From the NCBI RefSeq assembly GCF_026126425.1, contig NZ_JAFMPW010000003.1, positions 248,001 through 312,000 on the forward strand: a stretch of DNA of 64,000 nt, written 5' to 3'. Below are positions 27,804 through 31,595 of the stretch, one piece after another. Positions within the stretch are counted from its first letter, which is position 1, and each line of letters begins with the position of its first letter. Source of the stretch: Muriicola sp. Z0-33 (GTDB lineage Bacteria > Bacteroidota > Bacteroidia > Flavobacteriales > Flavobacteriaceae). Made by a program: the position numbers and the translations under genes. The notes below the pieces were generated by a model. The model saw only the letters and a program-made list of their open reading frames with translations, had not been told where the DNA came from and searched no databases.

Positions 27804-28298
27804 ATGATCTACAAAATCAGGATAATCCTGGATACTGAGGAAGATATATTTAGGGATGTAGAAATAGAGGGCAAGAGTACCCTGGAAGATTTTCACAATG
27901 TCTTAACCCAGTCGTTCGGATTTTTGGGCAATGAGATGGCTTCTTTCTACACCTGTGATGAAAGATGGAATCAGGATGAAGAAATTGCGCTTTTTGATAT
28001 GAGCGAGAAGGGTTCCGATGTACGATTAATGCATGAAACCTCTGTTGAAGAAATTCTTACGACCCAAACTCCAAAACTAATCTATGTGTATGATTTCCTC
28101 AACATGTGGACCTTCTTTGTTGAATTGGCCGATATAGTTGAAAAGGAAGATGGCCGGGTGTATCCCAATGTGTTGTTTAGCTTTGGAGAGCTACCGGATA
28201 CTCCTCCTGAAAGGAAATTTGAATCGGATCCGTCATTTGATTTTGATGATACCCTCGAAAATTATGACGATATGGATTTTGATGAAAACTGGAACTAA
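27804..28298 (+). CDS. pRiA4b ORF-3-like / IS1096 TnpR-like domain protein
   Basis: The 164-residue protein begins MIYKIRIILDTEEDIFRDVE and contains LEDFHNVLTQSFGF, the core of the plasmid pRiA4b ORF-3 fold (databases often call it IS1096 element passenger TnpR). The C-terminal 20 residues are highly acidic. The name should not be read as a sign of a mobile element: copies like this are a stable chromosomal family in flavobacteria. Function unknown. It has its own promoter element and precedes the nucleoid-associated-protein gene by 74 bases. Confidence 0.8.
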   Translation: MIYKIRIILDTEEDIFRDVEIEGKSTLEDFHNVLTQSFGFLGNEMASFYTCDERWNQDEEIALFDMSEKGSDVRLMHETSVEEILTTQTPKLIYVYDFLNMWTFFVELADIVEKEDGRVYPNVLFSFGELPDTPPERKFESDPSFDFDDTLENYDDMDFDENWN

Positions 28299-28372: not shown

Positions 28373-29431
28373 ATGATTAACCTCTACCCTACCCAAATCG
28401 AAAGTGTTTCCCTTCATCGTGTTGGCAACAAAAATAAAGGAGAACAGATTTTTCTGTCTGAGACAACATATGCTCTAGATGACGAAATTTCCGGACTGTT
28501 AAAAGAATATTTCTTTAAACCATTTAGGGAAAAGGAAGAGAACTATTACAGACTTACCCATGAGGTAGATGTAGAATTTAACGAAGTCTATAAAGCCGTA
28601 TGCGAGATCTTTGCCCAGCCGGGATCCTGTCATCTGAATTCTAAAAAACTTGCCAGACACCTTTATGAACAGTCTTCACACCCTCATATCAAAAGCGGTG
28701 AAGTATATGTAACTTATTTAACAGATGTGGTCCTTGACAATGTTAAAACAGATGCCATTGGTATATTCAAAAGCGAGTTAAAACAAGACTTCCTTCAATT
28801 TAAAGAAGAAGGTAAGAATCTGAATATAGATATCCTACAGGGGGTAAATATCAATAAGCTCGACAAAGGTTGCCTTATTTTTAATACAAATAAGGAGGAA
28901 GGCTTTAAAGTGCTTTCAATAGACAATAACAGGTACGATGCCAAATACTGGCTAGAGCAATTCCTGGACGTAGTCCCTTTAACTGATGATAATTTTTACA
29001 CCAAAAATTACCTGAAGTTTTGCCAGAATTTTGCAAAAGACGTGGTATTGCCGGCAGAAGACAAGCAGCAGGAAGTATTGTTTATGAACAGGGCAGTGAA
29101 TCATTTCGCGAAAAACGATGCCTTTGAGGAATCTAACTTTCTAAATGAAGTGATGGAAAATCCGGAGCTGATCCCGGAATTTAAACATTATAAAGTAGAG
29201 AAAGGCCCAAAATACAGTATTGAGGATGTTTCAAATTTTGAAATCGCGAATAAGGCAGTCTCTGATACCAGAAAAAAAATTAAGAATGTTATAGAGCTGG
29301 ATACGAATGTCCAGATTAAGCTCGACTTCATAAATCCCGAATCTGCAGAAAAGTTTGTGGAAAAAGGATGGGACGAGGAGCGGCAGATGTACTATTATCT
29401 GGTATACTTTAATAAAGAGCGTAAAAGCTAA
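28373..29431 (+). CDS. Nucleoid-associated protein (NdpA/YejK family)
   Basis: The 352-residue protein matches the NdpA (37-kDa nucleoid-associated) family in length and pattern. It has an N-terminal INLYPTQIESVSLHRVGNK, the SHPHIKSGEVYVTYL core strand, DKGCLIFNTNKEEGFKVLSID, and a C-terminal DNA-binding-like helical part with INPESAEKFVEKGWDEER. YejK of E. coli binds the nucleoid and interacts with topoisomerases. The gene converges on the kinase-like gene. Confidence 0.85.
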   Translation: MINLYPTQIESVSLHRVGNKNKGEQIFLSETTYALDDEISGLLKEYFFKPFREKEENYYRLTHEVDVEFNEVYKAVCEIFAQPGSCHLNSKKLARHLYEQSSHPHIKSGEVYVTYLTDVVLDNVKTDAIGIFKSELKQDFLQFKEEGKNLNIDILQGVNINKLDKGCLIFNTNKEEGFKVLSIDNNRYDAKYWLEQFLDVVPLTDDNFYTKNYLKFCQNFAKDVVLPAEDKQQEVLFMNRAVNHFAKNDAFEESNFLNEVMENPELIPEFKHYKVEKGPKYSIEDVSNFEIANKAVSDTRKKIKNVIELDTNVQIKLDFINPESAEKFVEKGWDEERQMYYYLVYFNKERKS

Positions 29432-29505: not shown

Positions 29506-30591
29506 TCATGGGATGTTGATCTTTTTTTCAATGATCTGCTTCATACTGACATCCTGATAATTTCGCTTGACAAAGTCTAACGCAAGTTCCAGTATTTGCC
29601 CCATAGTCTTACACTTCCTAAAATTTACATCGAGGGTAAGATCATAGATCTGGTTGCCCAGTAAGGCAATATTGTCATCCAGTGAAATATCATCAGATTT
29701 ACAGATATTCACCAGTCTGTTGATTCGGTTTCCCGAGCTAATGATTCTCTTTGCAACTATAGAACGTTCTTCAATTTTATACTGGTCTACCGATTTATGC
29801 TGTAGTTTACCTCTGACCAATTCTACCATTATATAGTTTTCTTTGAAGAACTGTGGACGGTACACCTTTAGTTTCCCTTCAAAACACTGCTGATCAAAAT
29901 CTATTGCCCTTATTCTATAGACCACATGATCAAAATCGTGTACCGGTACAATAACGTAATTATAGGAGCGCATATCTCCCAAAAGTCGAATCATACAGCG
30001 TTCATTAAATTTAACGAACTCTTTGGCAAGCTGAGATTTTTCTGATTCAGAACAGTTTGGCAACATATCTTTAATAAATACATCTCCAGGTATCCCTGCT
30101 ATATGTTCCTCAATCAGCGTGTCTTTATACACCAGAAAGTTGAGGTTGTAAGGAGATAACATATGTTCTAGTTCCAGACCATAAATTCTGGAAGCATCAG
30201 TTTTTTTTACATAGAAATAAGTAAAATTATCATTCAGGATATTCCGCACTTTAATTCTAAAGGGTTTGGAGTTCCCAAAAGTGCAGTAATCTACCGCATC
30301 TATATTTAAATATTGGAAAATACGATCACTACCATCAGAATGTAATATAGAATACACCTGCTTTAAACTCAGGTCTATTTCTTTTCTTTCCGAGTCAGAA
30401 TAATACACTCTTACCCAGAGGGTATCCTCCCCTTCAGCGTCATATACCACAACCGAACCAGCAAACCTGAGTAAGTCATCATAGAAAATAGGAATCTCTA
30501 TTTTTCGATTATACTCCTCCAGATAGGCATCCAGTTTTGTACTAACGGGATAGGCCGGTTTTTTCTTCCACATTAGACGTTCGTCAGTCAT
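29506..30591 (-). CDS. Conserved-looking protein with protein-kinase-like landmarks, function unknown
   Basis: The 361-residue cytoplasmic protein is not one I can name. Read against kinase folds it has a plausible beta3 strand FYVKK (K129/K130), an alphaC-like helix with E140/E142, a hinge-like strand LIEEHIAGIPGD (159-170), a catalytic-loop-like GDMRSYN with D206-x4-N211, and a metal-loop-like AIDFD with D231-F-D233. The spacing and the IPGD and DFD forms recall AceK and HipA-type atypical kinases. The first 120 residues are a separate beta-rich part and the last 90 are helical. It sits between the nucleoid-associated-protein gene (convergent) and the ABC exporter (divergent). Kinase activity is an inference. 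Confidence 0.55.
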   Translation of the reverse strand: MTDERLMWKKKPAYPVSTKLDAYLEEYNRKIEIPIFYDDLLRFAGSVVVYDAEGEDTLWVRVYYSDSERKEIDLSLKQVYSILHSDGSDRIFQYLNIDAVDYCTFGNSKPFRIKVRNILNDNFTYFYVKKTDASRIYGLELEHMLSPYNLNFLVYKDTLIEEHIAGIPGDVFIKDMLPNCSESEKSQLAKEFVKFNERCMIRLLGDMRSYNYVIVPVHDFDHVVYRIRAIDFDQQCFEGKLKVYRPQFFKENYIMVELVRGKLQHKSVDQYKIEERSIVAKRIISSGNRINRLVNICKSDDISLDDNIALLGNQIYDLTLDVNFRKCKTMGQILELALDFVKRNYQDVSMKQIIEKKINIP

Positions 30592-30677: not shown

Positions 30678-31595
30678 TTGGAAACGATTCTAACCGTTAA
30701 TAACTTAACAAAGAAATTCGGATACCTTACCGCAGTAAAAGATCTTTCCTTTTCTATAGAAAAAGGAAATGTCTATGGTATACTGGGCCCTAATGGTAGC
30801 GGTAAGTCGACCACCCTTGGTATTGTCCTGAATGTAGTGAATGCTACATCCGGAGGATTCTCCTGGTTCGATGGAAATACCTCAACACACGATGCACTGA
30901 AAAAGGTGGGGGCCATAATAGAACGTCCTAATTTCTATCCCTATATGACTGCTCTCCAGAATTTAAAACTGGTCTCCAAGATCAAAGAAGTAGGGCAAGA
31001 TAAAATAGAACAGAAGTTAGAATTGGTAGGCTTGCTGGAACGTAAAGACAGTAAATTCCGCACTTATTCTCTGGGTATGAAGCAAAGGCTGGCCATTGCA
31101 TCGGCCCTTCTTAATGATCCTGAAATTCTGATTCTTGATGAACCCACTAACGGATTAGACCCCCAGGGCATACATCAGATACGACAGATTATCAAAAAAA
31201 TTGCTGCTCAGGGTACAACAATATTGCTTGCATCACATTTATTGGACGAAGTAGAAAAAGTGTGCAGCCATGTGGTTATCCTTAGAAAAGGAGAGAAATT
31301 GTATTCTGGCCGTGTAGACGGGATGTTAGCCAGTCATGGCTTCTTTGAATTAAGGACCGATTCCAGTGAACAACTCCTTAAATTTTTAGAACAGAACGAT
31401 AGTTTTGGCGAAGTAAAACAGGAAAATGGCCTTATTACAGCCTTTCTTGAGCGCGAAATGAATGCCATTGAACTTAACAAACAACTTTTTGCTTCTGGTA
31501 TTGTGCTTTCTCATCTGGTTAAACGTAAAGAAAGTCTTGAAGAGCAATTCCTGACACTTACTGAAAACTCAAACACAACTGCCGCCACAAGCTAA
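30678..31595 (+). CDS. ABC transporter ATP-binding protein
   Basis: The 305-residue ATPase starts with TTG; this start gives the normal N-terminus ETILTVNNLTKKFG. Walker A is GPNGSGKST (about 38-46), the signature motif is YSLGMKQRL, and Walker B is ILILDEPTNGLDP, all of ABC-2/CcmA type. The C-terminal 90 residues form the extra domain of this group. The permease gene follows 21 bases later. The upstream ECF-type promoter suggests stress-regulated export or membrane remodelling. Confidence 0.93.
   Translation: METILTVNNLTKKFGYLTAVKDLSFSIEKGNVYGILGPNGSGKSTTLGIVLNVVNATSGGFSWFDGNTSTHDALKKVGAIIERPNFYPYMTALQNLKLVSKIKEVGQDKIEQKLELVGLLERKDSKFRTYSLGMKQRLAIASALLNDPEILILDEPTNGLDPQGIHQIRQIIKKIAAQGTTILLASHLLDEVEKVCSHVVILRKGEKLYSGRVDGMLASHGFFELRTDSSEQLLKFLEQNDSFGEVKQENGLITAFLEREMNAIELNKQLFASGIVLSHLVKRKESLEEQFLTLTENSNTTAATS

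Follow-up and report, generated by a model that had tools for sequence, protein, structure and literature searches.

The window, the whole stretch of 64,000 nucleotides of Muriicola sp. Z0-33 DNA that was analysed, contains on its minus strand an intact open reading frame (29506-30591, stop codon included) that encodes a protein of 361 residues. A first-pass annotation, in which the ORF, its coordinates and the quoted residue numbers were exact, had described this protein as unrecognised and as carrying the landmarks of a divergent protein kinase. The adjoining gene at 28373-29431 encodes the 37-kDa nucleoid-associated protein NA37 (PF04245, E 2.5e-54) and is convergent to the candidate kinase gene, with which it shares no operon. 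On the other flank a divergent ABC transporter operon starts at 30678 (PF00005 and an ABC-2 permease). Because it lies between a convergent gene and a divergent operon, the candidate kinase gene is apparently transcribed alone. Most close relatives from the same family share this arrangement, which is not seen further out. The identity of the nucleoid-associated neighbour, to which attention had been drawn earlier, is confirmed; as a clue to function the neighbour has no weight. The window further encodes, at 27804-28298, a PRiA4_ORF3-like protein of 164 residues with an acidic tail (PF07929), found beside the NA37 gene in close relatives.

No model of Pfam or NCBIfam matched the query alone or any of 45 diverse family members; the top scores were at chance level and inconsistent from member to member, and curated kinase-family models gave 0 matches in the same 45. 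Neither PADLOC, tried with two family members, nor the PDB sequences yielded a match, and a literature search found no paper describing the family. The protein is therefore indeed unrecognised, as had been proposed from its sequence.

Homologues of the same length were found by whole-genome searches in 33 of 60 relatives, in 96 of 295 genomes of the class and in 80 of 296 genomes of the phylum, so that roughly one in four to one in three of the sampled Bacteroidota genomes carry the family. Identity is mostly 40-89% over 330-360 residues, which is nearly the full length, and there is nearly always one copy per genome. A scan of genome contigs returned 393 relatives among 416 candidates, the best 80 of which belong to Flavobacteriaceae-type genomes. 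The plasmids and viral contigs that were searched contained no relative; together with the negative PADLOC result this led us to reject a mobile or defence origin. Several weak distant matches, including one in genome G375 (by sequence a FolC-type folylpolyglutamate synthase) and one on contig 44 of genome G580 (a secreted-type protein), were dismissed as chance. In genome G348 (L203:1688-1923) the gene survives as a degraded relic that is spread over two frames and interrupted by stop codons, which records a loss in one lineage; the gene can therefore be lost. Genome G287 has a normal copy and, on its contig 3 (L164:4019-5122), a divergent second one located between clpP and clpX on the same strand.

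Residue conservation was assessed in three sets of homologues gathered by BLAST alone, blind to motifs (111 close, 29 more distant and 19 phylum-wide sequences), and in a larger set of 247 sequences (effective number about 103), entry to which required the GDMx..N motif. The motifs follow one another in the order of a protein-kinase-like active site, and can be placed as follows:

30256..30279, minus strand: candidate nucleotide-binding glycine loop, F105-R112 (FGNSKPFR), putatively between beta1 and beta2
30205..30207, minus strand: K129, candidate ATP-binding beta3 lysine; invariant
30160..30195, minus strand: residues 133-144, candidate alphaC with E142 (invariant) and E140 (98%)
30082..30120, minus strand: candidate beta5 and hinge, T158-D170 (TLIEEHIAGIPGD), with E161/E162-x3-G166; E161, H163 and G166 invariant
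29959..29979, minus strand: candidate catalytic loop, G205-N211 (GDMRSYN), D206-x-R/H208-x2-N211; D206, M207 and N211 invariant
29890..29901, minus strand: candidate metal-binding DFG equivalent, D231-Q234 (DFDQ); all four invariant

In all 111, 29 and 19 BLAST-gathered sequences K129, E142, E161, G166, P168, D206, M207, N211, D231, F232 and D233 are invariant. Conservation of the motif residues is far beyond chance. Across more than 200 homologues K129, E142, E161, H163, G166, D206, N211, D231, F232 and D233 are invariant or nearly so, and in the 247 sequences the same holds for C103, N107, P110, Y127, D132, R135, G138, S146 and P147 and for H163, K190, V213, Q234, Y244, P246, N252 and Q270. 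Within the candidate glycine loop N107 and P110 are invariant, R112 reaches 99% and G106 95%, and the core AlphaFold model, itself of low confidence, has strands on both sides of it. Position 208 is always basic (R in 77% and H in 23% of the 247 sequences). In members that we guess to belong to the Rhodothermia the loop reads GDMHAGN or similar, which resembles the ABC1 and APH loops still more closely.

These data bear directly on the residues singled out by the first-pass annotation. D206, N211 and D231, whose conservation throughout the family was to decide the matter, are invariant across the phylum. Of the pair K129/K130, offered as the beta3 lysine, K129 stands and K130 drops out, being a lysine in 46% of the weighted 247-sequence set. 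Both helix glutamates hold, E140 as a nearly invariant residue; we prefer E142 over E140 as the candidate ion-pair glutamate. The candidate alphaC is a helix in the AlphaFold model of pLDDT 41.7 and lacks that form in the model of pLDDT 52.9.

The spacing of the motifs is kinase-like in one part and unusual in another. From E162 in the hinge to the catalytic D206 there are 44 residues (43 in lineages with a one-residue deletion), from N211 to D231 there are 20, and from K129 to the hinge there are 33. Downstream of D-x4-N the chain continues with hydrophobic strands and I-D-F-D. In PKA, APH and HipA the last distance is about 45-55, and 33 residues is short for a kinase N-lobe. A pattern describing the catalytic block fits 163 of 170 family ORFs and, among about 1,840 other ORFs, a single one, located in a locus that had been fetched for APH kinases; one further hit, a family member that the sorting rule had overlooked, is left out of this count. 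Since the pattern was written after the family had been seen, it speaks for the rarity of the block and is no independent test.

Two AlphaFold models were made from 70 close homologues that are 82-89% identical to the query. The first model had a pLDDT of 41.7 and the second, restricted to the core (90-345), one of 52.9. In these low-confidence models strands lie near 96-102, 111-116, 123-129, 152-155 and 158-161, the last of them running into the hinge EEHIAG, followed by helices at 169-179 and 182-205 that lead to the GDMRSYN loop, strands at 211-219 and 222-230, D231-F-D-Q and further helices. Both thus give the kinase order of strands, long helix, catalytic loop, beta-hairpin, D231 and helices; because of their low confidence they support this order of elements and not the fold. 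With either model Foldseek returned no significant match. Kinases were frequent among the hits of the second model, with E >0.5 and TM about 0.10-0.15, and are not used as evidence. VIA-align aligned a small sheet only (best Z 5.3, rmsd 2.1 over 47 residues), and its kinase rows, at Z 3.3-4.5, prove nothing. The hhalign probabilities against HipA, APH, ABC1 and CotH were at most about 1%, no better than those against 17 non-kinase control families. When the profile was aligned locally with those of HipA and of APH, the best alignment in each case put GDMrsyN on the known catalytic loop, at non-significant scores. Mean-field covariation in the 247 sequences was dominated by gap columns and was uninformative.

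The lack of any significant sequence, profile or fold match to a kinase and the short stretch between K129 and the hinge leave some room for a different fold, either another ATP-binding one, for which ATP-grasp is the nearest idea, or an unrelated hydrolase or transferase. ATP-grasp enzymes likewise use a strand lysine and a hinge glutamate, and the hinge motif EE(H)IxG is shared with them. On the other hand, the helix 182-205 that in the low-confidence models runs straight into D-x4-N, the hairpin and I-D-F-D is kinase anatomy and foreign to ATP-grasp, and the hinge spacing resembles that of ABC1. We therefore regard a non-kinase fold as unlikely.

Among the known kinase families the comparison with UbiB/ABC1/ADCK (PF03109) is at least as good as that with HipA. 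The UbiB/ABC1 proteins share with the family a hinge E-x3-G located 44 residues before the catalytic Asp (the value in 9 of 9 ABC1/UbiB sequences with a hinge identified by the rule used for the family), the loop D-x-H(or R)-x2-N and the I-D-F that comes after it, and in both no insert is seen between alphaE and the catalytic loop. The family lacks, however, the KxGQ motif of UbiB/ABC1, by sequence and alignment, as well as the Ala-rich loop, has 20 residues between N and D where ABC1 has 13, is much more compact from Lys to hinge, and gives neither a Pfam nor a profile match; a PF03109 search matched two other genes of the genome and left the candidate kinase gene unmatched.

HipA (PF07804) shares the D-x-H/R-x2-N that is aligned in the best local profile alignment, as well as a G-loop with K/R-P after it, and its N-to-D spacing of 17-18 residues compares with 20 in the family. 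The HipA_C HMM, however, matched neither the genome of the window nor the 45 members, the family has no HipA N-terminal domain and no HipB partner (the genes adjoining the candidate kinase gene encode NA37 and the ABC transporter, and no HipB antitoxin gene was found there), and it has DFD-Q where HipA has YD. HipA is moreover part of a toxin-antitoxin module, whereas the family is single-copy and widely conserved. The likeness to HipA suggested in the first-pass annotation is therefore confined to the catalytic loop and to the spacing from N to D. For the likeness to AceK (PF06315) suggested alongside it nothing was found in support: AceK, compared by Pfam scan alone, has the general kinase motif order in common with the family and gave no match in the 45 members.

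The APH, choline kinase and fructosamine kinase group (PF01636 and relatives) has the same G-D-x4-N followed by I-D-F/W-D/E. Its N-to-D distance is 12-16 residues compared with 20, the insert that is usual in this group between alphaE and the catalytic loop is missing in the family, and the family keeps a basic residue at D+2; the APH HMM matched 6 other places in the genome and left the candidate kinase gene unmatched. CotH kinases (PF08757) had no match in genome G000 or in the Pfam scans of the family. Taken together, the family looks nearest to UbiB/ABC1 and to HipA/APH, and looks like a member of none of the families tested.

The explanation that we favour is a catalytically competent kinase of the PKL superfamily, belonging to a separate family within the Bacteroidota, with either a protein or a small molecule as its substrate. 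We consider this probable, an estimate that is carried by the motifs because the fold is unproven. The earlier reading of the protein as a divergent protein kinase is accordingly probably right in kind: conservation, motif order, hinge spacing and the basic D+2 residue speak for it, and the fold is the part that stays unproven. In the mechanism that we infer, which comprises fold, use of ATP, phosphotransfer chemistry and kind of substrate, Mg-ATP would be bound between a small N-lobe (three strands, alphaC and two more strands) and a helical C-lobe, with TLIEEHIAG as the presumed hinge. K129, putatively paired with E142, would position the phosphates, D206 would activate the acceptor hydroxyl, N211 and D231 (with D233) would hold the metal, and R/H208 may stabilise the transferred phosphate.

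A kinase fold could also have been put to other chemistry, such as AMP transfer as in SelO or glutamylation as in SidJ, or could act as a regulatory scaffold. The DFD-Q in place of DFG and the additional invariant residues H163, Q234, Y244, P246, N252 and Q270, which plain kinases lack, would fit such a role. All canonical catalytic positions are nevertheless invariant, including the catalytic Asp that is often lost in pseudokinases, and we rate this possibility as improbable, slightly more so than that of a different fold.

Within the kinase reading the main question is the nature of the acceptor. Genomic context offers one clue. In 8 genomes of 6 families (loci L152, L153, L155, L156, L158, L159, L160 and L161) bshA lies directly upstream of the family gene in the same orientation, the two being separated by -4, 1, 5, 5, 19, 43, 47 and 86 nt. 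In the three cases tested the upstream gene matches the BshA equivalog TIGR03999 with 552-577 bits. The bshA product is the bacillithiol glycosyltransferase, with which bacillithiol synthesis starts. The linked genes are 8 of the ten sequences in one deep monophyletic group (support 0.83), and the linkage is a single ancestral operon that has persisted while the families diverged rather than a repeated independent linkage; outside that clade the family gene has no link to bshA. This is the only genomic clue to the substrate, and it points to thiol metabolism. In two other loci (L169 and L170) a gene that by eye is flavodoxin-like ends 3-6 nt before the homologue, which in turn overlaps a downstream gene for a small membrane protein that is rich in Cys and, by eye, RseC-like. 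The flavodoxin context (two genomes) and the clpP/clpX context (one genome) are leads only.

The operon with bshA would suit a PKL kinase of the APH, choline kinase or fructosamine kinase style, with the same fold as in our favoured explanation, that phosphorylates a small molecule such as a sugar or thiol intermediate or a repair product, perhaps as part of bacillithiol metabolism or close to it. Enzymes that are strongly conserved and encoded once per genome often serve metabolism. Small molecules are the substrates of most bacterial PKL proteins other than the Ser/Thr kinases (PMC4702295). Against this stand the confinement of the bshA link to one clade and the basic residue kept at D+2, which is generally missing in small-molecule kinases (PMC4702295). 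With regard to bacillithiol in particular, BshC is present in 274 of the 295 class genomes and 291 of the 296 phylum genomes and the family gene in 96 and 80, respectively, which indicates that bacillithiol is made without need of the family gene; because BshC is nearly universal, its co-occurrence with the family says nothing for or against a role there. We regard a small-molecule kinase of this kind as possible, though clearly the lesser prospect.

An acceptor that is a protein, either through Ser/Thr or as the enzyme's own chain, appears the more likely, on the strength of the conserved basic residue at D+2. Eukaryotic-type protein kinases generally have a basic residue two positions past their catalytic Asp, most small-molecule kinases lack it, and UbiB, which has a His there, may phosphorylate peptides (PMC4702295). 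Of the overall probability that we give to the kinase reading, the larger part, roughly even odds, goes to a protein acceptor, and the rest, rather under a third, to a small-molecule acceptor. A more far-reaching and rather unlikely reading is that of a phylum-wide, single-copy kinase family, missed by the kinase models searched, that acts on a conserved cellular protein and had its origin in the bacillithiol (redox) system, to which the operon with bshA in one deep clade would point.

If the kinase reading is correct, marine and soil Bacteroidota, among them Maribacter, Cellulophaga, Zobellia and numerous other genera, would share a conserved kinase that goes unnamed in the curated family libraries searched, with an N-lobe more compact than is usual for kinases. 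As a single-copy gene with no paralogue it should lend itself readily to deletion and assay, and its operon with bshA supplies a concrete first hypothesis. The family would then also be a useful test case for finding kinase families that curated profiles fail to reach.
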